Shown here: positions 3,604 to 25,569 of the stretch, in pieces
How the letters are laid out: the number at the start of each line of letters is the position of its first letter
How positions within the stretch are numbered: the first letter of the stretch is position 1
Notes under the pieces: model-generated
Told to the model about the DNA's origin: nothing
What the model saw: the letters and a program-made list of their open reading frames with translations, nothing else
Databases searched by the model: none
From: Hysterangium stoloniferum
Lineage: Eukaryota; Basidiomycota; Agaricomycetes; Hysterangiales; Hysterangiaceae
DNA: 64,000 nt
Assembly: GCA_015178975.1 (NCBI GenBank)
Contig: WHVD01000010.1
Location: 310,001 to 374,000, forward strand
Reading direction: 5' to 3'
Made by a program: the position numbers and the translations under genes

Positions 3604-4834
3604 ACAGTGAGTGACAAAACCCTTTCAATGATTTTTAGTTATGCAAAGATTCTTGAATAACTCAAGAACCACTGTAGCTACAGACCTATGATTTGGTGGG
3701 GGGTTAGGTTTATGTATATGTTATCTATTTACCCTCAAAATATTATGATATAAGCATCAGTTTTTCCCACACTATAAATAAATACCAATGAAAACACATT
3801 GGAAGGGTTTTGTCCCCATCACATGGTCAACACATGACCTTATTGAATATATGCAAATGAGTGCAAATAAAAATCATAGATATATGTATATACAGCTGTT
3901 CACTTTCTAATTCAACAACATCCCCACAACTCAACATTCTACACTATAAAGGCTCTTACTCCTGCTCAGCTTAGCCACATTCTCACTTTGCTCAATAAGG
4001 GCAAGTTTGCTTCTCAGATCTCTAAAATCACTGGCTGGGGTCTGTCCACTATATCCAGAATTCACTCTACTCATTGACCATTACTTGCCAAATCATCTGG
4101 TGGCCATCTATGCAAACATTCCTCCTCAGATATTCATTATTCCATTCAACAAATCACTTCTCAAAAGGTGAACATGCTACTGAGATCACCAAAATCCTTC
4201 AAGGTATAATGGGGAAGTCCATTTCAGCAAGGACTGTTCATTGGGCACTCAAGAAGGTTGGAATGAGGGCTATTGTGAAGAGAAAATGGCCTTTACCACT
4301 AAGAGGCATGGAAGACAATGATGGACTTTGCTCAGGTACACAAGGGCTGGACTGTGGATGATTGGAAGAGGGATGTTTGGTCAGATGAGACAAAAATCAA
4401 TTGTTTGGGGTCAGATGGGAGGAAATGAGTGTTGAAAAGAGCAGGTGAGGGGCTCAGTGATAGGCTAGTTAAGGGCAGTCAAGTTTAGAGGAGGAAATCT
4501 AATGTTATGGGACTGTATAATGTGGGAAGGTCCAGGATATTCCACCAAGATTGATGGGAGAATGGATGCTGACCTTTATGTCAGCATTCTGGAAGATGAA
4601 CTTCAAGCAACTATGGAGTATTATGGCAAGGATACAGAAGGTGTGGTCTTTCAGCAGGACAATGACTCCAAACAAAAGAGCAAGAAGGCCACCAATTGGT
4701 TCAAAGACCATGGATTTTTGGTCATGATATAGCCACCTCAGTCTGCCGATCTTAACCCAATTGAACACATCTGACATTACCTCAAAAGGAACTTGGAAGA
4801 GTATGAAGTGGCACCCAAGAGTATTCATGAGTTG
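3604..4834 (+). mobile_element. Decayed Tc1/mariner-like transposon
   Basis: A Tc1-type transposase can be traced across interrupted frames. It shows a helix-turn-helix start near 3950-4070 (LTPAQLSHILTLLNKG, then ITGWGLSTISRI), the first catalytic Asp in VWSDETKIN (about 4375-4400), the second in FQQDND (about 4650) and the third in the DLNPIEH block (about 4750). Several stops and at least one frame change make it a pseudogene. A likely left end begins CAGTGAGTGACAAAACCC at about 3605 after TA. A related inverted sequence lies at about 3797-3825, so the 5' part may contain a nested MITE. The right end is missing from view because an LTR retroelement starts at 4835 inside the transposase 3' region. 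Confidence 0.75.
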
Positions 4835-5311
4835 TGTTAAGGGTATATACACGGTGGGTTTCCAGAGAAACCCATGGGAAATCTGGTAGGACTTGGTTTA
4901 GCTTATAGGCTGTGTCCTTGCAAGATCATGTTGTCCAATTTCAAACAGGTGGATGGGAAACCCGGGGAGTCCAGGCAGAGTTGGTGGGTCGAGGATTTGT
5001 AGGTCAGAGGTCATGGGTCGAGAGGTTGGGGAGTTGAGGTAAATAAGTTGGAGGTTAAGAGATAGATGCATCGGAGCCTGTGGGCTCTGACTTCGCAAGA
5101 GCGGTGTAATTCAGAGAGGAGTTTAGAGTGGAAAATGTACTAGATTACTGGGGAGAATCTAAGCTGATTTTCTGACTTGATTGTATGTACAACATCTGCC
5201 AGACTGTATATAGACTGTGGAATGAATAACATACCAAATCCAGTAATAATGAAATGAAACTAACAAAACATAAAACAGGATAAGTAAACACCAAATTTGG
5301 TGTTAGGAATG

Positions 5312-6124
5312 TGTTACGACCAGACAATCCCGCTGGACTCCGGGCACTAAACCATACACCCCCATGCCCTACATGCACCAATCATCTGTTTATAGGATTT
5401 CCCACCTGGACTCTGTACGTCAAGACTCGTTACGTTCGACCTCATTATGACACATATCAGTTACTGGACTTCCCCTGGACTCCGTCTCTGTCTATGTCCA
5501 TCTTCATCCCACGCATCAGTCACCGGACCCCACTCAGAATCCCATCACTGCTCTAATTGAGCCCCGTTCCCATTTTAGTCAAATGACCTGTCACGATTTA
5601 GGACTCCACTCCCACTCCATTTCCCATTATGGGTTATGCTTTGTCACGATTCGGACTCCGCTCCATTCCATCCCATTCCTAACACCAAACTTGGTGTTTA
5701 TTATTCCCGTTTTATGTTTTGTTAGTTTCGTTTCATCAATACTGGATTTGGTATGTCATTCACTCCACAGTCTATATAAACTGGCAGATGTTTTAAATAC
5801 AATCCAGTCAGAAAATTAGCTTAGATTCCCCCAAGTAATCTAATCCATTTTCCGCTCTAAAACCTTGCTTGATTCACACCGCTCACACTAGTCGGAGCCC
5901 ACGGGCTCCGGCACATCTATCTCTCTCAACTATCTCGACTCACGACCCACGACCTCTGACCTACAACCTATGACCCACCCACCCGGACTCCCTGGGATTC
6001 CTGTCTGCCTGTTCAAAGTTGGACAACACAATCTAGCGAGGGCAGAGCCTATAAGCTGAAGCCAAGTCCTACCGGATATCCTGTGGGTTTCTCCAGAGAC
6101 CCGCCCTGTGTGTGTATCCTAACA
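5312..6124 (+). repeat. Solo LTR of the chromovirus family
   Basis: This is an 813-bp LTR running TGTTACG...CCTAACA, inserted in the older reversed LTR. It is flanked by the 5-bp direct repeat GAATG (5307-5311 and 6125-6129). It is homologous along its whole length to the LTRs at 9503 and 16160, but with many CpG-to-TpG/CpA differences, so it is older than they are. Confidence 0.88.
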
Positions 6125-6698
6125 GAATGGGACAGAATGGAGCAGAGTCTGAATCATGACGAATCATAACCATAATGGGAAATGGAGCGGGAGCAGAGTC
6201 CAAATCATGACAGGTCATTGACTAAAATGGGAACAGGGCTCAGTTAGAGGGATGATGGGTTTTCCGAGCAGGGTCTGGTGACTGATGTGTGGGACGAGGT
6301 TGGACATAGACAGGAATGGAGTCCAGCGGGTACTCCAGTGACTGATACAGGACATAACAAAGTCAAATGTGGACAAGTCTGACGTACGGAGTCCGGCAGG
6401 AATTCCGGTAAACTGACAATTGGTGTGTATAGGGCACAGGTGTGTATAAGTTAGTGCCTGGAGTCTGGCAGGAATTCTGGTCGTAACAGTACCCTCCCTT
6501 TATGCTGAAGTCCCAAAGAGGCTCTAGACCTTGATAAGGTTCTTGTTGGCTACGTGCACATATCAAAAGTTCATGTGGTTACATGTATGTGTCAAAGAGT
6601 CACATGATCTGGAAGGTAAGGTTCAGACGCGATGAGCCTATATAAAATTTTGAAAAAATGAAATTTCTTCTTCTTTATTACCCCCATCTTTGACATAA

Positions 6699-7604
6699 AT
6701 GGGTCCAAAGCCAACGCCACAAAGGCCAATGCCGACCGCTGGGCCCTCCACTGGCAACCAATACCAGGTGCCTCTCACCACTGCCCAAATTTTGGCACAG
6801 TGGGAGGAACAATGTTGACAGTGAGAGGAGGCAGAAAAGGAAGCCAGGGAGGTCAAGGAGGCATTGGATAGAGAATACCAGGCAGCATTGGCCATGGAGA
6901 AAGTGGCTGAGGAGAAAAGGAAGAAGGATGAGGAGGAGGCTGTGTGGGTTGCCATGGAGAAAGCCCAGGTGGCTGTGGAGAGGGCCACAGTTGCCGCAGG
7001 CAAAGTAAGTCCCATAGATACAACTTGTCGTTTTGACTGACTTGGCATTTTCAGTGCAAGGTGACAGAGGTCGAGTCTGAGTCTGAGGGGGAGCCAGAGA
7101 GCCCCCATAAAGTAAGTCTCGGGTCTGTGGGCCCACGGTGTTCTGGTTGTAATGACCAGAACACTGAATGCAATCAGAAGTCTGGGCAGAGACCGGGCTG
7201 CTACCAGTGTGCGCATCTCAAAGCGAGGTGCTCACTCATTCACGAGCAGCCCACAGGGTCTGTGGCATGGGACATTAGTGGGTCAGATGGGATTTCTGGA
7301 TTGGATGAGGTTTTGGGATGGATTGCCGAGGGCATAGAGGCCCAAAATGAGTTGCTCCGGAAGAGCAACAAGGTTCAAATTGTAGTGGTGAACGAACTCC
7401 CATGGGTTCCACTCAGAATATTTCAAATTCCTGGTGGAGTTTGGTGGCTATGTCTATGAGGAGCTGCAGATCGGGAGTTCCAAGGATGCTAGTTCAGACA
7501 AGGATGGGATGCCTACGGAGATAGTGGAGCTCCCTGAGGAGGTAAAGGAGGTGGAGAAAGCTGAGGTGGGGAAAAAGGACAGCCCCATAAATGTAGATGA
7601 ATAA
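6699..7604 (+). pseudogene. Antisense accessory gene of the old chromovirus, degraded
   Basis: Transcribed opposite to the pol of its host element. A TATA-like CCTATATAAA lies about 60 bases upstream (6627-6636). The start MGPKPTP and the end KKDSPINVD match the antisense frame of the young element (15579-15947). Between them are a charged Glu/Ala-rich predicted coiled coil (about 6800-7000), a possible GT-AG intron and, at 7139-7231, six cysteines spaced CxxCx6Cx9CxxCx6C, like a fungal Zn(II)2Cys6 cluster. This copy is decayed. The function is unknown; the cysteine spacing suggests DNA or nucleic-acid binding by analogy only. Confidence 0.55.
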
Positions 7605-8539
7605 AATAATAAAACTTGATAATAATTTCTTTTTAGAAATAAAAGTAAAGTGTGAAAAAAACATAAGAATCAAAGTCTGTGGAAAATCCACTTAAGGACT
7701 TGAAAGACATGTCAGAACCTGTAAAAGCAAAGAGAGACATAGGGCAACAGGGAACAATGAGAATGAGTCCAAATGTAACACGGGGTCTGTGGAGTGCAGT
7801 CAGAGAGACGATAGTGGTCCGGGTTTGAGTGGGTAAGCTGTATGAAAGTCAGTAACAATTTCTGTGGCATTATTGAGTTCTGTGGCCAAATTCCATGAAG
7901 TCTCTTCATTGGTGCCCTCATAACCCACCCACTTGACCAAGTAAAGCAGTTTTCAAGTGCATCAATGCTTATCAATTTTCGAATCTAAAATTTGTGAGAT
8001 TTCAAACTCGGGTTCTCTGTCAATAATGACTGGAGGGGGTAGAGATTGCACATGATCCAGGATAGTGTTAGCAGTACAAGGTTCTAACATAGAAACATGA
8101 ACTACCGGGTGTACCATGTGCATACTATCCAGAAGCCATAGGGTCCAAGTGTTAGGGTACGTACATGGCAGGTTTCTGGAGAAACCTGCAGAATATCTGG
8201 TAGGACTTGGCTTCAGCTTATAGGCTGCACCCTTGCAAGATCGTGTTGTCCAATTTCAGACAGACGGACAGGAATCCTGGGGAGTCCGGGTGGGGTTTGT
8301 GGGTCAAGGGGTCATAGGTTGGAGGTTGTGGGTCGAGAGGTCATGAGTCGAGATAGATAAGAGAGATAGATATGCTGGAGCCCATGGGCTCTGACTAGCG
8401 TGAGCAGTGTAATTCAAGTAGGAGTTTAGAGTGGAAAATGTATTAGATTACTGGGGGAATCTAAGCCGATTTTCTGACTGGATTGTATGTACAACATCTG
8501 CCAGACTATATAGACCATGGAATGAATGACATACCAAAT

Positions 8540-9281
8540 TGTTATGACCGTGTCGCAACCCTATCAGTCCCCAAGGTTATCGCCACTTATCGACGATTCA
8601 AGTTACTGTTCAAGTCACCACATTGGAAACCATCAGCCTCCCGACACTGACGTATGCTTTCGCGATGATCAAACTCCATTTATGCCCACGTCAAGATATA
8701 CTCGTACTATCTGGTTAAACTTTGATACGTCCCCTTTTATTATGATGATCCATTTTATCCTATGTTTCACATATGTCTATATATATCTGTAACCCTCGAA
8801 CTATTTCCTTTTACCATAGTTCTGCTCTCAGTTATCATCGGCCTCCGAACTAATCATAAACTTCCCGTTCCTAGTCAAGCTTATTGTTAATACCGTTTTC
8901 CGCCTTTCTTCCCGTTAGTATTTTCTAGACACCTGTTACTTGTATATGAACCCGCTGTAGTTGTAGTTACTAGGCAATCAGAATATCGACTCAGAATACC
9001 CTCTTACGCCTCCAGAAGTCTCATACTAAGAATTCCATCTTCCGCCTTCGCATGCACTCGCCCCCCTTCGGTCCCTGACCCCTTGGCTGACACTCGACTC
9101 ATCCCTCAGTTCCAATCAGTAGTTTTCACCGAGAGGTATTGGTTGGGACTAGTCTTTGCCTGCCCAAAATTTAAGGACACCTGACGGACAACTGCAAAGG
9201 TGCAGCACATAAGCTGAAGCCAAGTCCTTCCGATTGGTCTCCATCAGTCCACCGACATTAGTCAGTTTCTAGTTCTTAACA
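8540..9281 (+). repeat. Solo LTR of a second family
   Basis: A 742-bp segment starting TGTTATGACC and ending TTCTTAACA, with a 5-bp target duplication CAAAT at 8535-8539 and 9282-9286. It has a TATA-like run near 8775-8790. Near its 3' end, ATAAGCTGAAGCCAAGTCC (9209-9227) is also found near the 3' end of the chromovirus LTR (10250-10268). The rest is not obviously similar, so it is a related but distinct LTR family. No internal region of this family is in the window. Confidence 0.8.
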
Positions 9282-9502
9282 CAAATCCAGTAATAATGAA
9301 ACAAAACTAGCAAAACATAAAAGGAGAATAGTAAACACCAAATTTGGTGTTAGAAACAGGACGGATGGAGCGGAGTCTGAATTGTGACAAATTATAAACC
9401 ATAATGGGAAGCAGAGCAGGAGCGGAGTCCAAATAGTGACAGGTCATTTGACTAAAATGGGAATGGGACTCTGTTAGAGGGATGATGGGTTTTCTGAGTG
9501 GG

Positions 9503-10323
9503 TGTTACGACCCGGACAAATCCCGCCGGACTCCGGGCACTAACCCGTACGCCCCCACGCGCTACAAGCACCAATCGTCTGTTTATAGGATTTCCCGCCC
9601 GGACTCCGTTACGTCAAGACTCGTTACGTTCGACCTCATTAAGACACATATCAGTCACCGGACTTCCCCCGGACCCCGTCTCTGTCTATGTCCGTCTTCG
9701 TCCCACGCATCAGTCACCGGACCCGCTTAGAATCCCGTCACCGCTCTAATCGAGCCCCGTTCCCGTTTTAGTCAAATGACCTGTCACGATTTAGGACTCC
9801 GCTCCCGCTCCGTTTCCCGTTATGGGTTATGCTTTGTCACGATTCGGACTCCGCTCCGTTCCGTCCCGTTCCTAACACCAATTTGGTGTTTACTATTCCC
9901 GTTTTATGTTTTGCTCGTCTCGTCTCATTATTACTGGATTCGGTATGACATGCATTCCACGGTCTATATAAACTGGCAGATGTTGTACATACAATCCAGT
10001 CAGAAAATTAGCTTAGATTCCCCCCAGTAATCTAATACATTTTCCTCTCTAAAAACCCTACTCTCATCAGACCGCTCGCACTAGTCGGAGCCCACGGGCT
10101 CCGGCGCATCTATCTCTCTCGACTATCTCGATTCACGACTCTCGACTCACGACCTACGACTCACGACCCACGAACCCCCGCCCGGACTCCCCGGGATTCC
10201 CGTCCGCCTGTCTGAAATTGGACAACACGATCTAGCGAGGGCGCAGCCTATAAGCTGAAGCCAAGTCCTACCGGATATCCCGCGGGTTTCTCCGGAAACC
10301 CGGCCTGAGTGTGTATCCTAACA
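9503..10323 (+). repeat. 5' LTR of the young chromovirus
   Basis: It begins TGTTACG and ends CCTAACA. It contains a 17-nt palindrome AACACCAATTTGGTGTT (9874-9890) and, about 75 bases later, a TATA box TCTATATAA (9963-9971), which probably drives the element's transcript. The short open frames within it are incidental. Confidence 0.93.
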
Positions 10324-10359
10324 GTATTTTCTGACTAATACTCGCAGATTGTTTTCATT

Positions 10360-11652
10360 ATGCCACCAAGAAGAAGTACACGCGCACAGTCATCAATGCC
10401 TGGACCGTCGACTCTTCATTCCCCGTTAACTCTGTATACCAGTCAGACGCTTGCGAACCAGTCGGAACCCATGGAAGAAGCCCGCATCGAAGAAATCCCG
10501 GAAGACCTGGACGAATCCGAGCGCGAGGACGATTCCGTGGCCCCCGACAAGGGCAAAGGTGTCGAAATCCCTCTTGAAAATCCTCCGCCTTTTCAACGAC
10601 CGAACACGAGGGATCCTACTTCTGAGTTTTTAGCAGGTACTATAGATAAATTCATGACGCACCTGCTAGAAGAACGAAAAAGAAAGGAACAAGAACCTCC
10701 ACGGTCAAAAGTCAATGCTCCGGAACCCTTCACGGGTTCCAACCCAAACAAACTCTCTACTTTCCTCATGCAATGTCGCTTCAATTTCCGCGATCGCGCC
10801 GCTGCATTCTCCACGGACTCCCGAAAAGTCAACTACGCACTTTCATATTTGTCGGGATCCGCGTTGAAATGGTTCGAACCGGCTTTTAGCGGGATTACCG
10901 AGGAAGAGCCGCTCTGGCTTGAAAATTGGGAAGCTTTTGTTGAGGAGCTTGAAACCAACTTCGGCCCGTATGACCCGACAGGAGAAGCCGAGAATAGTCT
11001 CACAAATCTTCGTATGAAGGACACGCAGCGCATCACGGACTACATCGTCCAATTCAATAATCTTGCAGCTCGTTGTCAGTGGGGCGATCCCGCTCTCCGC
11101 CACCAATTCTACGCCGGTCTGCCGTCCCGCCTTAAAGACGAAGTCTCAAAAGGAGAAGATGGCAAGCCAAAAACCCTGTCCCGTATGCGCCTCAAAGCTC
11201 AAAACGCGGACGCACGTTATTGGGAACGTCGCGCGGAAGTTGCCCGCGAGACATCCGCGGACAAAATAAATAAGTCCAAGGACAAAAACAATAACACCAA
11301 TTCGTCAACCAGCAACCAGAACTCCACGCAATCCGACAAGAAGAACGATAAAAAGTCTTCAAACAACAACAACAACAATAAGGACAATAAGGACAACAAC
11401 AAGGGTCAACAGTCCGGCAAGCAAGCTGGAAAACCCGACCTCTCAGGCAAACTCGGACCTGATGGCAAATTGACTCCACAAGAAAGACAACGTCGTATGG
11501 ACAACAACCTCTGTCTCTTGTGCGGGAAACCCGGTCATCGAGTCCCGGAATGTCCGCTGGCAAAAGCAAACTCTTCAAAGGGTCGAACAGCCAAGGCCTC
11601 CACGGAAACCCCGTCGAAGGACAAACCGGCTGCCGATTCGAAAAAAGAGTAA
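10360..11652 (+). CDS. Gag of the young chromovirus
   Basis: A 430-aa structural protein of the retroelement. A retrotransposon-gag core spans about residues 115-290 (PEPFTGSNPNKL, YLSGSALKWFEP). A long Asn/Lys/Ser-rich low-complexity stretch follows, then a CCHC zinc knuckle (CLLCGKPGHRVPEC) near residues 386-400. The pol frame lies in the -1 frame relative to gag and overlaps its end, as in family members that express Gag-Pol by -1 frameshifting. Confidence 0.92.
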   Translation: MPPRRSTRAQSSMPGPSTLHSPLTLYTSQTLANQSEPMEEARIEEIPEDLDESEREDDSVAPDKGKGVEIPLENPPPFQRPNTRDPTSEFLAGTIDKFMTHLLEERKRKEQEPPRSKVNAPEPFTGSNPNKLSTFLMQCRFNFRDRAAAFSTDSRKVNYALSYLSGSALKWFEPAFSGITEEEPLWLENWEAFVEELETNFGPYDPTGEAENSLTNLRMKDTQRITDYIVQFNNLAARCQWGDPALRHQFYAGLPSRLKDEVSKGEDGKPKTLSRMRLKAQNADARYWERRAEVARETSADKINKSKDKNNNTNSSTSNQNSTQSDKKNDKKSSNNNNNNKDNKDNNKGQQSGKQAGKPDLSGKLGPDGKLTPQERQRRMDNNLCLLCGKPGHRVPECPLAKANSSKGRTAKASTETPSKDKPAADSKKE

Positions 11653-14600
11653 GCAACCCCGCGGACTCCGCGCGGGTTAGGGGTTGCGTTGCCTCTCCGC
11701 GCATTCAAGAGTTCACTCGCCTCAACGCATCCGCTCTTTCACATTCTGATTCATTTTTCGTTAAACTTATGTCTAATATGCTTCCGAAATTCGTTTTTTC
11801 AGCTCTCATAGATTCCGGCTCGACTCATTGTTTTTTAGATACAAAATTCACGCAAAAAAATTCTTTGTCAACTTATTCGATAAATCCCGTCGCTCTCCGC
11901 CTCTTCGATGGCACAAGTAATTCGGTTGTTACCCAAGCTTGTGATTTACCCATCAGTTTCCCTTGTGGAACATCTCAATTGGTCACTTTCTATGTGACCC
12001 AGTTAGACTCAAGTTGCTCGGTGGTTCTAGGACATAACTGGCTTACCCGCTACAATCCGTTGATTGACTGGATAGCTAACAGTATAACATTCCGAACTCC
12101 CGCGGTGACCGAGGAAACTGCGCCTGTCTCGGCCTCCACGGCACCCAAGGCCTTCCCGGCACCTGCAGTCTCGAGGACTCCTGTGATCCCTACGGCACCC
12201 ACAGCTTCCCCGGAACCCACGGCATCTCCGTCCATTTCTCTGATTAATGCTGCAGCTTTTATTAGGGCTTCAAAAATGGATGGATCCCAGGCGTTCACTA
12301 TCAACTTAAAAATTGATGAAGCAACTGGACGTTTCTCAACCCCAGTATCCGAATCTGAGCAAGCTGCTGACCTAGAAGGCGTCCCGGAGAAATACCATGA
12401 CTTCGCGGATGTTTTTAGCAAGCGAAAAGCTGACCGGCTTCCGCCTCACAGAGAATACGACTTAAAAATCGATCTTGAAGATGGCGCCCAGCCACCCCTA
12501 GGACATATTTACCCGCTTTCGTCCACGGAACTATCCGCAATCCGTGATTTCCTGGATGAACATTTGTCCATAGGTTTTATTCGACCCTCAAAGTCTCCTT
12601 TTGGAGCACCTGTTCTGTTTGTCAGAAAAAAGGATGGATCCCTTCGACTATGTGTTGATTTTAGAGGACTCAATGCTGTCACCAAAAAGGACAAATATCC
12701 ACTCCCACTTATATCTGACCTGCTCGATGCTCCGCGGAATGCCCGGATTTACACCAAAATAGATCTCAAGCATGCCTATCATTTGGTCCGGATTGCCGCG
12801 GGCGATGAATGGAAAACCACTTTTAGAACCCGCTATGGGGCCTTCGAGTGGTTGGTCATCCCTTTTGGACTCACTAATGCCCCGTCTGTTTTTCAGCGTT
12901 TTATCAACGACATTTTCTCCGACATGCTCGATGTATGCGTCATTGTTTACTTGGACGACATTCTTATCTACTCCGAGAATCCCGCGGAACACGACAAACA
13001 AGTCCGTGAGGTTCTCCGGAGGCTCAGACAACATGGTTTATTCGCAAATGGTAAAAAATGTACTTTTGACACGGACTCCGTGGAATACCTAGGTTTCATG
13101 ATGGGACCCGATGGACTCCGCATGGACGAAACTAAAGTGCAAGTCATCAAAGATTGGCCCGAACCCCGAAAAGTTAAAGATATACAATCCTTCCTCGGCT
13201 TTGCCAATTTTTATAGACGTTTTATCCGTGGATATTCCGACATCACGGTACCCCTTACCCGTCTTACGCGTAAGGGTACTCCGTGGAACTTTAACGATAA
13301 GTGTCAAAAAGCTTTCAATCTTTTAAAAAATTCTTTTTCCACAGCTCCTATTCTGTCGCATTGGAAACCGGACTTCCCGCTCATTGTTGAAACGGACGCC
13401 TCCGACTATGCACTTGGAGCCATTCTCTCTATCCAGGACTCCGACGGAGAAGTTCACCCCGTGGCTTTTCTGTCCCGGACTTTTACCGGAGCAGAGCTCA
13501 ACTACGACGTTCATGATAAAGAACTTCTGGCAATCTTTTCAGCTTTCAAAGCGTGGCGACACTATTTGGAAGGTTCAGGAGCTCCTATTGACGTTGTAAC
13601 AGATCACAAAAACCTGGAATACTTTTCTACCACAAAACTCTTGACCCGTCGGCAGGCCCGCTGGTCTGAATATCTCTCCGCCTTCAACATGATTATCCGT
13701 TTTCGACCCGGCCGTCTCGGCGGCAAACCCGACGCTTTAACTAGACGATGGGACGTCTATCCTAAAGAGGGGAGCAACGACTATGCAACGGTAAATCCGC
13801 ACAACCTGAAACCTATCTTCACGAATCAACAACTTACCGCATCGGTCCGCGCAACTTTCCTCGTCAATCCCATTGTCCGTGGAATTATCATTATGGATAT
13901 CGAAAAGCTACATCAAGATATTCTATCGGCAATTCCGCTAGACCCAGTTACTAAAGCTCATCTGGACAATCCCGTGGACCCCGATCAACCTCGGTGGTCT
14001 CTTGATCAACATGGTTTCATTAGACTTGACGATAGGATCTATGTACCGGACTCCGACGGCCTCCGCCTCAGGATCCTTCAATACAAACATGATCATCCAC
14101 TCTCAGGACACTTCGGGTACAACAAGACTCTATCATTAATAAGAAGAGAATATACTTGGCCCGGACTCCGTGGATTCGTTAAGCACTATTGTAAATCTTG
14201 CACTACTTGTCCCCGCTCGAAATCTCAGCGACACAAGCCATACGGCCTTTTGAAACAACTCCCGGTACCGGAACACCCGTGGAATTCTATATCTATGGAT
14301 TTCATTGAACACCTGCCGGATTCCGAAGGCTTTTCCGCTATCCTAGTCGTTGTTGACAGATTCTCAAAACAAGGTATATTCATCCCTACATATGATACAA
14401 TTACGTCCGTGCAGCTAGCGGAACTTTTCATTATCCACGTATTTTCCAAGCACGGAGTTCCGTCCCACGTGACTTCCGATAGAGGATCAGAGTTCGTGTC
14501 TCACTTCTTTAGATCCCTCGGAAAATCCTTGGACATGACCTTACATTTCACGTCCGGACATCACCCGGAAGGCGACGGACAAACCGAACGCGTCAACCAG

Positions 14601-15377
14601 ACATTGGAACAATACCTCCGCGTATATTGCAATTATCAACAGGACAATTGGAAATCTTTGTTACCACTTGCAGAGTTTGCTTACAACAATGCACCTTCGG
14701 CCACTACTGGCGTTTCCCCGTTCTTTGCAAATAAAGGATATAATCCAAATATTACAGTACATCCAGAACGAAATCTCGCCTCTGTTCGTGCTCAAGAGTT
14801 CACCACGGACCTCCACGAGCTCCACGAGGAACTCCGGACTGCAATATTGTCCGCCCAAGAGCAATACCAACATTCAGCGGACAAACACCGGATCCCGCCA
14901 CCAAACTTCAAGATTGGCGACCGTGTTTATGTCAAAGCTCAATTCTTCCGGACTACCCGTCCATCAAAGAAGCTTGCTGAAAAATATTTAGGTCCGTTTG
15001 AAATTATCGCACAAGTAGGTTCAGTTTCTTGGACTCTACGGCTTCCGGATAGCATGCGCGCGGTACACCCGGTATTTCATGTCTCTATGCTAGAACCTTG
15101 TACTGCTAACACTATCCCGGATCGCGTGCAATCTCCGCCTCCTCCTGTCGTCATTGACGGAGAACCCGAGTTTGAAATCTCTCAGATTTTAGATTCAAAA
15201 ATTGACAAGCGTCGACGCACTTGTAAACTGCTTTACTTGGTCAAGTGGGCGGGTTACAAGGGCACCGATGAAGAGACTTCATGGATTTTGGCCACGGAAC
15301 TCGGTAATGCCACGGAAATCGTTACTGACTTTCATACAGCATACCCACTCAAACCTGGACCATTATCGTCTCTCTGA
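11520..15377 (+). CDS. Pol of the young chromovirus: protease, RT, RNase H, integrase, chromodomain
   Basis: An uninterrupted frame of about 1285 codons overlapping the end of gag; the first codons are probably never used as a start. In order: aspartic protease (ALIDSGSTHCF), reverse transcriptase (LCVDFRGLN, catalytic YLDDILIYS), RNase H (ETDASDYALGA), and integrase with an HHCC zinc region (HPLSGHFGYNK ... CKSCTTC) and D,D,E core (SMDFIEHLP, TSDRGSEFV, GQTERVNQTLEQ). A C-terminal chromodomain (LYLVKWAGYKGTDEETSW) ends the protein. This domain order is diagnostic for chromoviruses. Confidence 0.95.
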   Translation: MRETRSSSPGMSAGKSKLFKGSNSQGLHGNPVEGQTGCRFEKRVSNPADSARVRGCVASPRIQEFTRLNASALSHSDSFFVKLMSNMLPKFVFSALIDSGSTHCFLDTKFTQKNSLSTYSINPVALRLFDGTSNSVVTQACDLPISFPCGTSQLVTFYVTQLDSSCSVVLGHNWLTRYNPLIDWIANSITFRTPAVTEETAPVSASTAPKAFPAPAVSRTPVIPTAPTASPEPTASPSISLINAAAFIRASKMDGSQAFTINLKIDEATGRFSTPVSESEQAADLEGVPEKYHDFADVFSKRKADRLPPHREYDLKIDLEDGAQPPLGHIYPLSSTELSAIRDFLDEHLSIGFIRPSKSPFGAPVLFVRKKDGSLRLCVDFRGLNAVTKKDKYPLPLISDLLDAPRNARIYTKIDLKHAYHLVRIAAGDEWKTTFRTRYGAFEWLVIPFGLTNAPSVFQRFINDIFSDMLDVCVIVYLDDILIYSENPAEHDKQVREVLRRLRQHGLFANGKKCTFDTDSVEYLGFMMGPDGLRMDETKVQVIKDWPEPRKVKDIQSFLGFANFYRRFIRGYSDITVPLTRLTRKGTPWNFNDKCQKAFNLLKNSFSTAPILSHWKPDFPLIVETDASDYALGAILSIQDSDGEVHPVAFLSRTFTGAELNYDVHDKELLAIFSAFKAWRHYLEGSGAPIDVVTDHKNLEYFSTTKLLTRRQARWSEYLSAFNMIIRFRPGRLGGKPDALTRRWDVYPKEGSNDYATVNPHNLKPIFTNQQLTASVRATFLVNPIVRGIIIMDIEKLHQDILSAIPLDPVTKAHLDNPVDPDQPRWSLDQHGFIRLDDRIYVPDSDGLRLRILQYKHDHPLSGHFGYNKTLSLIRREYTWPGLRGFVKHYCKSCTTCPRSKSQRHKPYGLLKQLPVPEHPWNSISMDFIEHLPDSEGFSAILVVVDRFSKQGIFIPTYDTITSVQLAELFIIHVFSKHGVPSHVTSDRGSEFVSHFFRSLGKSLDMTLHFTSGHHPEGDGQTERVNQTLEQYLRVYCNYQQDNWKSLLPLAEFAYNNAPSATTGVSPFFANKGYNPNITVHPERNLASVRAQEFTTDLHELHEELRTAILSAQEQYQHSADKHRIPPPNFKIGDRVYVKAQFFRTTRPSKKLAEKYLGPFEIIAQVGSVSWTLRLPDSMRAVHPVFHVSMLEPCTANTIPDRVQSPPPPVVIDGEPEFEISQILDSKIDKRRRTCKLLYLVKWAGYKGTDEETSWILATELGNATEIVTDFHTAYPLKPGPLSSL

Positions 15378-15578
15378 CCGCACCCCGCGGACCCCGTGTT
15401 ACGTTTGGACTCATTTTCACTATTCCCTGTCGCCCTATGTCTCTCTTTGCTTTTACAGGTTCTGACACGTCTTTTTCAAGTCTTTAAGTGGAATTCCCAC
15501 GGACTTTGACTTTGACTTTTATTCTTATGTTTTTCACACTTTACTTTTATGTTTAATTTGTTTTATTTCTATATTACT

Positions 15579-15947
15579 TCAGTCTACATTTATGGGACTG
15601 TCCTTTTTCCCCGCCTCCTGTTTTCCCGCAACAACGGCGGCCCTCTCCGCGGCCACCCGGGCCTTCTCTGCAGCCACCCGGGCGTTCTCCGCGGCCACTC
15701 GCGCAGCCTCCTCCGCCTCACGTTCCCTCTCCTTCGCGGCCTCTTCCTCCGCGGCCAATGCTTCCCGATACTCTTTGTCCAGGGCCTCCTCGGCCTCCCT
15801 TGCCTCTCTCTCTGCTGCTTCACGCAGTTGGCGCTGCTCTTCTCGCCGCGCCAACAATTGGGCCGCACTCCATGGCGCCCGATACGGAGTGCCCGTGGAG
15901 GGCCCTGCTGTTGGCATTGGTTTGCGTGGTGTCGGTTTTGGTCCCAT
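15579..15947 (-). CDS. Antisense accessory protein of the chromovirus
   Basis: A 122-aa frame on the strand opposite to gag-pol, between pol and the 3' LTR. It starts MGPKPTPRKPMPTAGPSTG and ends KKDSPINVD. Residues ~30-110 are Glu/Arg/Ala-rich and strongly predicted as a long coiled coil. A TATA-like CTATATAAAA lies about 55 bases upstream on the minus strand (16001-16010). The same gene, including start, TATA and C-terminal motif, exists in the old reversed copy (6699-7604), where a Zn2Cys6-like cysteine cluster is also visible. Conservation across two copies of very different age argues against a chance frame. I do not know the function. Overlapping plus-strand frames here are shadows. Confidence 0.6.
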   Translation of the reverse strand: MGPKPTPRKPMPTAGPSTGTPYRAPWSAAQLLARREEQRQLREAAEREAREAEEALDKEYREALAAEEEAAKEREREAEEAARVAAENARVAAEKARVAAERAAVVAGKQEAGKKDSPINVD

Positions 15948-16000
15948 TGGTGACGAAGATGGGGGTAATAAAGAAGAAGAAATTTCTATTTTTTCAATTT

Positions 16001-16010
16001 TTTTATATAG
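16001..16010 (-). promoter_or_regulatory. TATA box for the antisense accessory gene
   Basis: The minus strand reads CTATATAAAA, 54 bases before the ATG at 15947, inside a region conserved with the old copy (6627-6636). The position and conservation suggest an internal promoter directed away from the 3' LTR. Confidence 0.45.
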
Positions 16011-16159
16011 GCTCGTCGCGTTTGAACCTTACCTTCCAGATCACATGACTCTTTGACACATACGTGTAACCGACATGACTTTTGACACATGCGCGTAGCC
16101 GACAAGAACCTTATTTAGGTCTAGAGCCTCTTTGGGACTTCGGCATAAAGGGAGGATAC

Positions 16160-16980
16160 TGTTACGACCCGGACAAATCCCGCCGGACTCCGGGCACTAA
16201 CCCGTACGCCCCCACGCGCTACAAGCACCAATCGTCTGTTTATAGGATTTCCCGCCCGGACTCCGTTACGTCAAGACTCGTTACGTTCGACCTCATTAAG
16301 ACACATATCAGTCACCGGACTTCCCCCGGACCCCGTCTCTGTCTATGTCCGTCTTCGTCCCACGCATCAGTCACCGGACCCGCTTAGAATCCCGTCACCG
16401 CTCTAATCGAGCCCCGTTCCCGTTTTAGTCAAATGACCTGTCACGATTTAGGACTCCGCTCCCGCTCCGTTTCCCGTTATGGGTTATGCTTTGTCACGAT
16501 TCGGACTCCGCTCCGTTCCGTCCCGTTCCTAACACCAATTTGGTGTTTACTATTCCCGTTTTATGTTTTGCTCGTCTCGTCTCATTATTACTGGATTCGG
16601 TATGACATGCATTCCACGGTCTATATAAACTGGCAGATGTTGTACATACAATCCAGTCAGAAAATTAGCTTAGATTCCCCCCAGTAATCTAATACATTTT
16701 CCTCTCTAAAAACCCTACTCTCATCAGACCGCTCGCACTAGTCGGAGCCCACGGGCTCCGGCGCATCTATCTCTCTCGACTATCTCGATTCACGACTCTC
16801 GACTCACGACCTACGACTCACGACCCACGAACCCCCGCCCGGACTCCCCGGGATTCCCGTCCGCCTGTCTGAAATTGGACAACACGATCTAGCGAGGGCG
16901 CAGCCTATAAGCTGAAGCCAAGTCCTACCGGATATCCCGCGGGTTTCTCCGGAAACCCGGCCTGAGTGTGTATCCTAACA
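16160..16980 (+). repeat. 3' LTR of the young chromovirus
   Basis: The same 821-bp sequence as the 5' LTR (9503-10323), with no difference noticed by eye. It is followed by the GTGGG target duplication. Confidence 0.93.
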
Positions 16981-17161: not shown

Positions 17162-18725
17162 CAGTGGCTTCCAAAACTGTCCCAATGTTTTGGTAATTCT
17201 CAATAAATGCTTTATAACCTACCAAATAAATTTTTTAAAATAGTGAAATTATTTCCACATATACCTTACCTACTAGCTTTGATATACCCAAATATTACAT
17301 AATATAGATCAATATTGGTGTCACAGTGAATATTTAAAAATGACCAATCATTGGGACAGTTTTGCAACCCTCTCTTTTCACACATTTCATTATATCATAT
17401 TATATTCTAGAGGGCCAGGAAAATTACAAGAAAATTCACATGACATCTATTTGATGTTATAATTAATATGTGACATGAATCACATTTTAACTATCATTCC
17501 TATCATGAAAGCTATTTCCCCTCTCAAAAGAGAACAAGCCATCTCCCTCCTACAAAATGGACTCTCCAATAGGAATGTAGCCTCTACAACAGGTCTTAGC
17601 AAATCTACTATCAGTAGAATTCCTCAGGAGATAGAGATAGACAAAGAAAACCTGAAAGGAGGATCATATATCAAATCACCTCTGGAAAACTAGATAATGC
17701 TGTCCAGGCTACACACTACATTAATTCCATCAATAAATAAATATCATGTCTCACCCAAAATAGTCAGAAGGACCTTGAAACAGCATGGTTTCAAAGCTGT
17801 AGTCAATGCAAAAAGACCTTTGCTCAAGGCTCAACATATAAAGGCCAGGTTAAGCTTTGCCCTCAAGTACCAAAACTGGACTGTGGATGATCAGAAAAGG
17901 GTCTTGTGGTCTGATGAGACCAATATCAATAATATTGGGTCAGATGGACATCAATATGTGTTGAAGAAAGCTGGAGAACCACTTTCTGATAGGACAACCC
18001 AACTTACAGTCAAGTATGGAGGTGGAGATATCATGGTGTAGGGCTGTATGGGTTGGAATGGAGTGGGAATGCTTGCAGAGATTGAAGGAAGGAAGGATTC
18101 TGCACAATATGTGGAGATCCTGGCTCAGCATTTGTCCCAGAGCATTGAAGATTTGGATATTCCAGCAGATGAGGCCATTTTCCAGCAGGATAATAACCTA
18201 AACACATATCCAAGATGGCACAAAAATGGTTTTTTGAAAATCATATTCAGGTGTTAAACTGGACAGCACAGTCTCCTGACCTGAATCCCATAGTACATCT
18301 TTGATTCCACCTGAAGAAACAGCTCCAGAAATATCCTTCACCATTAAAGGGAGTTTAGGGGTTATAGGAGAGGGTGGAAGTGGAATGGGCAAAGATTGAG
18401 CCTTAGAAGTGTCAGAAACTGATCAAGAATATGCCCAGAAGACTTGATGCTGTAATAAAGCCTAAGGGAGGCCATACAAAGTACTAGAATAACAAGATAT
18501 CTGATTAAAAAAGGGTGGTTGCAGAACTGTCCCAATGATTGGTCATTTTTAAATATTCACTGTGACACCAATATCGATCTATATTATGTAATATTTGGGT
18601 ATATCAAAGCTAGTATGCTAAGGTATATGTGAGAATAATGTCACTATTTTAGAAGATTTATTTGGTAGGGTATAAAGCATTTATTGAGAATTACCAAAAC
18701 ATTGGGACAGTTTTGGAAGCCACTG
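17162..18725 (+). mobile_element. Tc1/mariner-like transposon with long inverted ends
   Basis: A 1564-bp element bounded by TA (17160-17161 and 18726-18727). Its ends CAGTGGCTTCCAAAACTGTC and the reverse complement are parts of ~215-bp terminal inverted repeats (17162 to about 17376, and about 18513-18725). It sits in a chromovirus LTR. The homologous uninterrupted LTR position at about 6434-6450 reads GTATAAGTTAGTGCC, giving a paralogous empty site. A decayed Tc1 transposase lies between the repeats. Confidence 0.92.
17505..18487 (+). pseudogene. Tc1-type transposase, inactivated
   Basis: It starts MKAISPLKREQAISLLQNG with an N-terminal helix-turn-helix (TTGLSKSTISRI). Catalytic-core traces follow: WSDETNIN (first Asp, about 17915), FQQDNN (second Asp, about 18185) and QSPDLNPI (third acidic site, about 18275). 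Several stops and frame changes interrupt it, including a stop at 17693 and another near 18040, so it cannot make a full transposase. It may still be movable in trans because both inverted ends are present. Confidence 0.85.
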
Positions 18726-20280
18726 TAAGTTAGTGCCTGGAGTTTGGCAGGAATTCCAGTCGTAACACCAAGAGACTGAACCTACTTGTGCGATAATTTC
18801 AAATGGACCTAAATATTTTTCAGCAAGCTTTTTTGATGGATGAGTAGTCTGAAAGAATTGAGCTTTGACAAAAACATGATCGCCAATTTTGAAGTTGGGT
18901 GGCAGAATCCAGTGTTTGTCCGCTGAATGTTGATATTACTCTTGGGTGGACTTTATTGCAGTCCAGAGTTCCTCATGGAGCTCGTGGAGATCCATGGTGA
19001 ACTCTTGAGTGTGAGCAGAGGTGAGATTTTGTTCTGGATGTACTGTAATATTTGGATTATACCCTCTATTTACAAAGAATGGGGAAACACCAGTAGTGGC
19101 TGAGGGTGCATTGTTGTAAGCAAATTCTGCAAGTGGTAATAAGGATTTCCAATTGTCCTGTTGATAATTGCAATATATGCAGAGATATTGTTCCAATGTC
19201 TGATTGACACATTCAGTTTGTCCGTTACCTTCTGGGTAATGTCCGGACATGAAATGTAGTTTCATGTCCAAGGATTTCCTGAGAGATCTAAATAAGTGAT
19301 ACACAAACTCTGATCCTCGGTCGGAAGTTACGTGGGATGGAACTCCATGCTTGGAAAATATATGGATAATAAAAAGTTCCACTAACTGCACGGATGTAAT
19401 GGTATCATATGTAGGAATGAATATACCTTGTTTTGAGAATCTGTCAACAATGACTAGAATGGCGGAAAAGCCTTCAGAATCCAGTAGGTGTTTAGAGATA
19501 AAATTCCATGGGTATTCCAGTACCGGGAGTTGTTTCAAAAGGCCATATGGCTTGTGTCACTGAGATTTCGAGTGGGGACAAGTAGTGCAAGATTTACAAT
19601 AGTGCTTAACAAATCCACGGAGTCCAGGCCAAGTGTATTCTCTTCTTATTAATGATAGAGTTTTGTTGTACCTGAAATGTCCAGAGAGTGGGTGATCATG
19701 TTTGTACTGAAGGATCCTGAGGTGGAGGCTATCTGAGTCTGGTACATAGATGTGATCATCAAGTCTAATGAAACCATGCTGATCAAGAGACCACCGGGGT
19801 TGACCAGAGTCCATGGGATTGTCAAGGTGTGCTTTAGTTATCGGGTCTAGCAGAATTGCTGATAGAATATCTTGATGTAGCTTCTCAATATCCATAATGA
19901 TAATTCCATGGACAATGGGATGGATGAGGAAAGTTGCGTGGACCGATGTGGTAAGTTGCTGATTTGTGAAAATAGGTTTCAGGTTGTGCAGGTTTACCAT
20001 GGCATAGTCGTTGCTCCCCTCTTTAGGATAGACATCCCATCATCTAGTTAAAGTGTCGGGTTTGCCGCTGAGACAGCCAATAGTCATATTGAAAGCAGAT
20101 AGGTATTCAGACCAGTGGGCCTGCTGACGGGTCAAAAGTTTTTCCAGGGGCAAAGCCTACATACATCGCTGAACAAAGAAGCACTCTGTTCATGTTGGCC
20201 TTCACACTTCCGTCCGGTGCCCACAACCTTGACTTTTTCAGTATATACGGAACACCCTGGCTCGCAGCTGTTTGTGAGTG

Positions 20281-24084: not shown

Positions 24085-25569
24085 ATGTTTCATCGTTTCC
24101 TCGAAGAGGCCCGTCGTCGATATTTCACCGTTTCTCGCATAATGTCAGGCGACACTACCAGAGACCTCTTCTCTTTGACTCCAGGATCTACTCACGAGCT
24201 ACATCGGGTCAACATCTGCATCAACGAGGAGAGATTCTCCTTAGCTGAGTACGCGGTCGTCCAGCAAGTTACATGGTACAAAACCCGGTCAGATCACTAC
24301 CAACACGAATTTCTTCTTGTTGAGTTCAAACATGCAAAACTGGTTACGGCACCATTATACTGCGTAGTGACTAGAGGTACATCGGAAATTAAAGAAATGA
24401 ATGTTCAAGATTCGGAGTTGGATAAAGAATACGGCGAGGATGCGCCGACAACACCCCCGGCCGACATCCCTCTCAACCAGATGGATAAGACGGGAGAGAT
24501 TAGAGTCGTAGAGGGACAAGATTACATAAAACAGGTTCATGCGAATCCGGACTTGAGTAATGAGGAAGTTGCCAAGGTATGATTTATTCTACTACTTGGG
24601 GCGGCGCGTCACATACATTTGCAGCGCAATGGTGGACCCACCTCCATACATCGGCCAGTCACAAGATATTCACACACTTTTTCGTCAGTGGCATCAGCAA
24701 CGGCTTCAAGTGTAACCTCTAAAGACATCTCGGATGTGATTTCGTCGGGAATTGTTAACGGCGCAGCAAAAGTCCTCGATTTGGCCAATTATCAGATGCT
24801 TGCATTGGATCAACTTATGTTCTCAACGGATGGGTCTTCGGAATTCATTAAAGTGTACTGGAATAATATCGAGGTTTGTCGAACGCTCGATATGTCTGGC
24901 AGGAACGCGCGCCGCTTCACTCTCGCCAACCTCGTTCTGTTAGCTTCCATTGCTAACCGCTATCACCGCAAGTATCGACTTGCGGGATACCAGTGTTACT
25001 GGTACGCAAGTGTCATTTTTGACGCAATTGTAGAGATTACTGGTGCGAAGACTGTGGATGGGCCAGCGGTGTCAAAGAGGGGACAATTTGGGCGAGTCAA
25101 AGTGGTGCGAGGGCGACATGACACACTTGGTGTGATCCTTCAGAGGTATCATGTGAAGTGGACGACCACAGAAGCTCGTATTGCGGAGTTGAAGAATCCA
25201 GAGGTATGTTAATGCGTCCATATATCTCAATAAAACTATTTTCACCAATGCACGGTTTTCCAGATTGTGGCGAAGAGAATCGCGCAGTTGGATGCAAGAG
25301 CGGCACAGTCGGATGCAAGAGCGGCACAGTCGGATGCAAGAGCGGCACAGTCGGATGCAAGAGCGGCACAGTTGGATGCAAGAGCGGCACAGTTGGATGC
25401 AAGAGCGGCACAGTCGGATGCAAGAGCGGCGGAGGAGACGCAGAAGAGGGAAGCAGCTGAGGAACGAACAAGGCAGCTAGAGGCGGATAATGCAAGGAAA
25501 GATACTATGATGGCTGAGATGCAGCAACAAATGGCGGCACTCTCAGGCAATTCAGCTCACACACGCTAA
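24085..25569 (+). CDS. Uncharacterised gene X, copy 1 (458 aa, C-terminal repeat helix)
   Basis: Exons 24085-24576, 24625-25203 and 25264-25569 sum to 1377 nt in frame. I recognise no named domain. Residues 1-164 are acidic toward the end (DSELDKEYGEDAPTTPPADI). Residues 165-357 form a conserved core (LDLANYQMLALDQL, IANRYHRKYRLAGYQCYWYA, FGRVKVVRGRHDTLGVIL). Residues 358-458 are a charged, Ala-rich helix with seven DARAAQS-type heptads, then Glu/Gln-rich sequence, probably a coiled coil. Two further copies lie at 49855-51263 and 51264-52518. The core is almost unchanged between copies while exon 3 differs, which suggests constraint on the core. The start was chosen as the first Met in the open frame; Met at 24142 is an alternative. 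It looks like one of the many lineage-expanded Agaricomycete hypothetical families. No function is claimed. Confidence 0.7.
25291..25437 (+). repeat. 21-bp minisatellite in exon 3 of gene X copy 1
   Basis: Seven tandem units of about 21 bp (GATGCAAGAGCGGCACAGTC plus one base) encode DARAAQS/L heptads. The other two X copies keep only one unit and carry a different, longer repeat (about 42 bp, REAAEKQATEDALK), so exon 3 changes by repeat turnover. Confidence 0.9.

Follow-up and report, generated by a model that had tools for sequence, protein, structure and literature searches.

Two related high-copy chromovirus families carry a spliced protein-coding antisense gene that is preceded by a TATA-like box. 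The full gene comprises three exons and two GT-AG introns of ca. 50 nt, and lies on the antisense strand between pol and the 3' LTR, a position read in the window (the whole stretch of 64,000 nucleotides that was analysed, a part of contig C2) and in the copies fetched from the genome, not in every genome match of exon 3. The gene is not a product of chance, since its splice borders, its cysteines, and its codon pattern are conserved. As its product we favour, as rather probable, a nuclear zinc-cluster DNA-binding regulator that would act in trans. PMC7264820 gives the function of antisense accessory genes in LTR retrotransposons as unknown; the role of the present one can be tested directly, since it is present at high copy number in two families of one genome, is spliced and constrained, and has a recognisable metal-binding signature.

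The window contains a young and an old copy of the gene. The young one belongs to an element spanning positions 9503–16980, with identical LTRs of 821 bp at 9503–10323 and 16160–16980 (+ strand), flanked on each side by the target duplication GTGGG, which stands directly before the 5' LTR and again after the 3' LTR; the purine tract AAAGGGAGGATAC directly precedes the 3' LTR. The gag ORF (10360–11652, + strand, 430 aa) has a Retrotrans_gag domain and CCHC knuckle matches below the cut-off, and the pol ORF (11550–15377, + strand, 1275 aa) codes for protease, reverse transcriptase, RNase H, integrase, and a chromodomain. The element is a chromovirus, i.e., a Ty3/gypsy element with a chromodomain, as seen from the gag, RVT_1, RNase H, and integrase domains found with Pfam, from the C-terminal Chromo domain at residues 1208–1262 of pol (27.3 bits vs a cut-off of 25.1), and from the presence of LTRs, target duplication, and purine tract; a primer-binding site was not identified in it.

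Between its pol and 3' LTR, the antisense frame pointed out in an earlier note on this DNA is present at 15579–15947 (− strand) and codes for 122 aa, beginning with MGPKPTP and ending with KKDSPINVD. It had been taken for the gene itself, which is right as regards exon 1 (15621–15947, − strand, 109 codons, coiled-coil-like), preserved in full, but the frame as a whole is a truncated form of the three-exon gene. The last codons of exon 3 with the stop (15579–15620, − strand) are fused in frame with exon 1 via a deletion between GCGGGAAAA repeats. In comparison with the relative L009, the stretch that separates the two repeats, beginning where exon 1 ends and extending almost to the end of exon 3, is missing. 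The 122-aa open frame is therefore a derivative that arose by deletion and has no Cys cluster; its deletion junction was found in none of the 39 other copies scored when the genome was searched with this frame.

The old copy, at 6699–7604 (+ strand), was said to encode the same protein. It does have the same gene start and end as the young copy, but it is not a single frame, being interrupted by introns, a deletion, and stops met in straight reading. Its exon 1 (6699–7004, + strand), containing in-frame stops, is followed by intron 1 (7005–7054, + strand, GTAAGT...CAG), the 57-nt exon 2 (7055–7111, + strand), and the start of intron 2 (7112 to approximately 7130, + strand), the intron donors lying at 7005 and 7112. 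A deletion spans the border of intron 2 and exon 3, so that the end of the former and the start of the latter are missing relative to L009, and the remainder of exon 3 (from approximately 7131 to 7604, + strand) has a frame break near 7400. This remainder contains the cluster CxxCx6Cx9CxxCx6C at 7139–7231 (+ strand); scanning the window in all six frames gave only two other six-Cys matches, which overlap each other inside a tandem repeat rich in Cys at 25.3 kb.

The intact structure was read from relatives of these copies (family A), the genome searches covering the 111-Mb assembly of 554 contigs. In the search with the young frame the best 40 of 711 candidates were scored: the window copy matched over its full length, 38 others over bases 1–326 or 1–327, and one over bases 1–294 plus a fragment; L009–L047 are all the 39 scored outside the window. 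The matches of the relatives stop at base 326 or 327 because exon 1 ends there and an intron begins, as read in L009, in which base 327 is followed by GTAAGT...CAG, an exon of 57 nt, a second GTAAGT...CAG, and an exon of 513 nt with the stop. The spliced product has 298 aa in L009 and 294–298 aa in its relatives. By manual count, the spliced frame reaches its normal end in 32 of the 39 best-matching copies, many of which are near-identical (the exceptions are L010, L012, L014, L016, L035, L040, and L043), and a genome search with exon 3 gave 115 stop-free places among the best 150 of 1283 candidates, likewise counted manually.

Splice borders were compared in 71 copies, L009–L047 (39) and L056–L087 (32), the latter picked by hand among the stop-free exon-3 matches, a choice that favours intact frames. 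Intron 1 has GT-AG borders in all 71 copies and intron 2 in 70; a CTRAY branch-point-like sequence near the acceptor is found in 70 and 71, respectively, and intron lengths are 48–72 nt and 47–52 nt, with all three phases represented. The TATA-like box that had been noticed before the ATG in both window copies is indeed there, as TATATAAAA ca. 60 nt 5' of the ATG, at 6639–6647 (+ strand) in the old copy and 16001–16009 (− strand) in the young one, and TATAWA occurs at most 60 nt from the ATG in 68 of the 71 copies. In the 39 copies, introns diverge by 6.6 and 8.5% vs 2.5, 1.7, and 4.6% in the exons, with 1.3% upstream and 7.8% downstream of the gene. L040, which has an insertion in exon 1, is counted among the 71 for the splice borders and the TATA-like box and left out of the representative sets; 38 representatives were obtained as copies of less than 98.5% identity among 70.

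Purifying selection on the antisense frame had been set beforehand as a test of the proposed gene, and the gene passes it. In the 38 representatives, divergence at the three codon positions is 0.084/0.093/0.218, whereas the introns are flat, and omega of the gene is 0.312 (lnL −9004.8 vs −9234.9 at omega 1; best of three fixed kappas), omega 1 being worse by 230 log units; stop and gapped codons were masked in the omega computations. By part, omega is 0.437 in exon 1 and 0.259 in exons 2 and 3 together. As the picking of 32 copies for lack of stops in exon 3 favours intact frames, the computation was repeated without regard to stops on 38 unchosen copies (L009–L047 minus L040), giving 0.305, with 52 log units over omega 1, and on 11 representatives of these, giving 0.323, with 37 log units. 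In the same 25 copies, omega is 0.301 for the gene and 0.285 for a 420-nt fragment of adjacent pol, i.e., the codon constraint on the antisense gene is as strong as that on adjacent pol. During propagation it was probably stronger than measured, because decay after insertion is included in omega.

The predicted protein comprises, from the N- to the C-terminus, a coiled-coil-like region rich in Glu, Ala, and Arg, a basic stretch QKKARK (KKARK-like), CSGCSDRSTECNKKSGRGPGCYQCAHLKARC, a predicted helix, an acidic tail, and a conserved C-terminus; the long coiled coil proposed from the window copies is supported as a coiled-coil-like region, judged by eye. The spacing of Zn2Cys6 clusters (PF00172) is CX2CX6CX5-12CX2CX6-8C, and their CGG-recognising first half usually has a run of basic residues between Cys 2 and Cys 3. 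The suggested resemblance of the six cysteines to such a cluster stands as far as spacing and conservation are concerned: CxxCx6Cx9-10CxxCx6C of the two families falls within this range, and in family A (CxxCx6Cx9CxxCx6C) the successive Cys are kept in 38, 37, 37, 38, 38, and 38 of the 38 representatives. It does not reach the Pfam cut-off. Zn_clus is matched below threshold in both families, A and B, only by pieces of 65–67 aa (E 0.055 and 0.16; 14.0 and 12.6 bits; cut-off 21), and for the family A piece it ranks below DUF5539, likewise under its own cut-off; formally, the protein is not a member of the Zn2Cys6 family. It also differs from that family in having its basic residues in the second half of the cluster, with one Arg each between Cys 2 and Cys 3 (CSGCSDRSTEC in A, CYRCSIRNMTC in B). 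The whole 298-aa protein matches no Pfam family at E up to 1, its Pfam matches include no fungal regulator domain, and no PDB relative was found at E up to 10. An AlphaFold model of the Zn region of the old copy is poor (pLDDT 51), exceeding 70 only in the helix after the cluster, and a scan of viral contigs with exon 3 gave 11 pattern matches and no relatives.

If the product is the regulator that we favour, transcription would begin downstream of the TATA-like box and the antisense transcript would be spliced twice. The result would be a nuclear protein of ca. 295 aa, multimerising through its coiled coil and further comprising the basic stretch, the Zn2Cys6-like cluster, and the acidic tail. 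It would bind DNA and act in trans on the element family, most likely controlling transcription or copy number. The introns would outlast retrotransposition because the genomic RNA is the opposite strand, on which they are no introns. The full protein may be dispensable in cis, because in the recently inserted window copy exon 2 is missing and very little of exon 3 is left. A gene regulating its element in this way would be an LTR-retrotransposon counterpart of antisense retroviral regulators, its function resembling that of HBZ.

The LTR was also considered as a CGG binding target, and this gained no LTR-specific support. Inverted repeats in the young LTR are more frequent than in shuffles (CGG-N3-CCG 5 vs 0.4; CGGACTCCG 3 vs 0.02), and of the 59 copies examined, 56 had a U3 that could be read, 53 of them with at least two CGGACTCCG. 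This excess is not counted as evidence because that in pol is at least as strong (CGG-N3-CCG 11 vs 1.0 in shuffles) and the family B LTR has no CGG-N3-CCG; it has CGGAA in excess (11 vs 1.4).

The protein might instead be a nucleic-acid-binding accessory of the particle or the integration complex, serving packaging, nuclear entry, or site choice, a reading that we regard as possible, if doubtful. A coiled coil, a basic stretch, and a Cys cluster are equally compatible with a chaperone or a tether, and the constraint equals that of pol; however, a separately promoted, spliced antisense mRNA would be an odd route for a particle protein, and the acidic tail and the Zn2Cys6-like spacing suit a regulator better. 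Less probable still, and in our opinion quite unlikely, is that the antisense unit acts mainly as RNA, pairing with the genomic RNA at its 3' end and feeding RNAi or another kind of silencing, with the protein being incidental. The gene and the genomic RNA are complementary, and for plant antisense ORFs an RNA role has been put forward (PMC7264820), but the codon constraint, the kept Cys, and the kept splice borders and phases suggest a translated product, and a pure RNA role is not expected to produce codon-position bias.

The second family (B) came from six loci hand-picked from a search with the SH3 domain of pol (best 150 of 2638 candidates). In L092, the pol C-terminus is 83.5% identical to that of family A over 152 aa, and the antisense frame carries CYRCSIRNMTCWKQKVKWGGTCYPCAVLKLPC, with the spacing CxxCx6Cx10CxxCx6C, an acidic tail, and TATAAAA 57 nt 5' of the ATG. 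In the four family B copies read, exon 1 ends with GGAAA(A/G), followed by GTAAG, and the 54-nt exon 2 begins with RKA (QKA in L096) and ends with SPK, followed by GTAAGT; exon phases and intron positions are common to the two families. Exon 1 has one or two stops in all four, and L095 lacks one Cys. A genome search with family B exon 3 gave matches of 73–100% identity, 114 of 150 being stop-free (manual count; best 150 of 867 candidates), and omega of this exon in four copies is 0.404 (lnL −1563.2 vs −1576.7 at omega 1). The profiles of the two families, built from nine copies of A and four of B, match in the Cys cluster only, over 50 columns (38% identity, probability 92%, E 6e-7). The remaining loci, L088–L091 and L093 (39–46% pol identity), had neither a match to the gene below E 0.01 nor a six-Cys motif in the 2.8–2.9 kb read from each, and may contain diverged forms of it. 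A single 29-aa match in L091 (E 0.03) lies on the pol strand.

Because the two families match in the Cys cluster only, yet have common intron positions and constraint, the gene appears to be old and to have been kept in both. The same observations make it very improbable that a host gene was recently captured by one element and is carried as a passenger, even though introns and a TATA-like box are what a host gene would have; an old capture of a host gene may be the origin of the antisense gene.

Frames other than that of the gene were compared in the 38 representatives. The gene frame is stop-free in 27 of them, and the mirror frame (other strand, common third positions), with 129 stops, in none; omega of the mirror frame is 0.391, while four control frames have 1.67–1.94, and one further opposite-strand frame is stop-free in 19 representatives, with omega of 1.67. 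Relative to a context-matched expectation, the ratio of nonsynonymous to synonymous changes is 0.48 in the gene frame and 0.52 in the mirror frame (0.46 and 0.48, respectively, in the 27 stop-free representatives), and 1.42–1.68 in the other four. That the frame is open only through the composition of the sense strand, whose Ala/Arg/Glu-rich GC codons would leave frames on the other strand open, or that the sense ORF 15592–16056 is the real gene, has next to no probability left and is judged refuted by the stops in the mirror frame, despite the reduced nonsynonymous change there, by the omega of the partly open sense-strand frame, and by the splice signals at the exon borders, which run in the antisense direction.

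Antisense extra genes are already known from plant elements and from fungal gypsy elements (brtn of Boty); within the open-access literature searched, the features that seem new are splicing combined with a zinc cluster, occurrence in two diverged high-copy families, and mosaic evolution. In that literature, which mostly excludes subscription papers, no description of a zinc-cluster gene antisense to a fungal LTR element was found. The HBZ gene of HTLV-1 is spliced, represses the LTR, and differs from the present gene in coding for a bZIP protein, not a zinc cluster. Among fungi, brtn was reportedly described by Zhao et al. (2011, Virology 417:248) as an antisense gene of Boty-like gypsy elements in Botrytis cinerea. 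The author of the earlier note was not aware of an antisense frame of this sort in fungi, but in Botrytis and in Sclerotinia, Boty carries brtn as an extra antisense gene that lies between pol and the 3' LTR (PMC7264820), and the Boty-like element is a fungal gypsy element with a chromodomain (PMC4227169). The host element, antisense orientation, and position between pol and 3' LTR are alike in brtn and the present gene, compared by description only.

Plant antisense aORF-3R comprise gene23 of Grande and those of RIRE2 and of Retand, with TRP28 (PF04195), and are similar to the present gene in position, orientation, occurrence in most copies, and a suspected nuclear or DNA-binding role (PMC7264820, PMC11963269). 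They differ in that Retand is of a non-chromovirus lineage, unlike the elements described here, and in having TRP28, absent from the Pfam matches of our antisense protein, in place of the Cys cluster; moreover, the present gene is spliced, and the word "intron" does not occur in the texts of the two papers. HBZ, also an antisense gene near the 3' end that codes for a nuclear regulator (PMC11963269), is alike in these two respects by analogy only, and differs in having its promoter inside the 3' LTR (PMC7264820), whereas the TATA-like box of our gene sits outside the LTR.

The gene diverges in a mosaic manner. Five pairs of copies show differences of 0–9% per 100 nt in the flanks (LTR, spacer, and pol) and of up to 28% in the gene body, the divergence climbing at the ATG and dropping again near +1150 to +1200. 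Third-position divergence in 300 pairs of 25 copies is 0.055 in pol, 0.161 in exon 1, and 0.155 in exon 3, its value for the gene being nearly three times that for adjacent pol and more than twice the pol value in 200 of the 300 pairs. In the pair L009/L058 exon 1 differs by 0.44, exon 3 by 0.088, and pol by 0.06, while L009/L014 is a mosaic in the opposite direction (0.119, 0.223, and 0.04, respectively). Decay of methylated CpG as the cause of the high divergence was rejected because transversions are common, accounting for 33 of the 77 differences in exon 1 of L009/L058, with transitions at CpG accounting for 13. We infer that gene segments were exchanged between lineages during replication, on common backbones, though exon 1, exon 3, and pol do correlate in their pairwise distances (0.55–0.65). 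A further reading, which we advance as speculation and hold to be unlikely, is that the gene is a specificity cassette, with old diverse alleles swapped between near-identical element backbones, so that the regulator or self-recognition factor of a newcomer would differ from those of the residents, much as phages swap immunity regions. The divergence figures and mosaic pairs above, and the 83.5% identity of the pol ends of families A and B with a gene match confined to the Cys cluster, speak in its favour, and allele-specific recognition, if true, would amount to a self/non-self system of retrotransposons. The 560 nt upstream of the gene diverge with a median of 0.050 and a mean of 0.107 in the 300 pairs, the mean being raised by three of the 25 copies, L065, L068, and L071, whose upstream stretches do not resemble those of the rest.

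The chromovirus at window positions 9503-16980 is a very recent insertion; its two 821-bp LTRs show no differences between them, and the element is flanked on either side by GTGGG. Old fragments of the same family occupy 4856-8539, comprising LTR-like stretches at 4856-5309 (-), 5313-6125 (+), 6125-6487 (-), and 8150-8539 (-), together with a pol remnant at 7803-8150 (-), which represents only the end of the gene; gag gave no match within these pieces. The pol piece of a third element remnant, located at 18768-20141 (-), is 85% identical to the pol of the young element.

L090, a locus elsewhere in the same genome (G000:C79:313100-315930), carries a pol of a different family, ca. 40% identical. 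Downstream of it, at oriented positions 1765-2399, open frames overlap on both strands and could constitute another accessory gene; the Cys motif of the antisense gene is absent from these frames. Within the window, the six-Cys pattern is also matched at 25294-25410 (-), owing to the low complexity of a Cys-rich tandem repeat of CRSCIQL-like units.

By resemblance of their translations, ORF fragments at 1087-2442 are presumably Hsp70-like, and those at 4110-4361 and 17697-18041 are taken to be Tc1/mariner-like transposase fragments.
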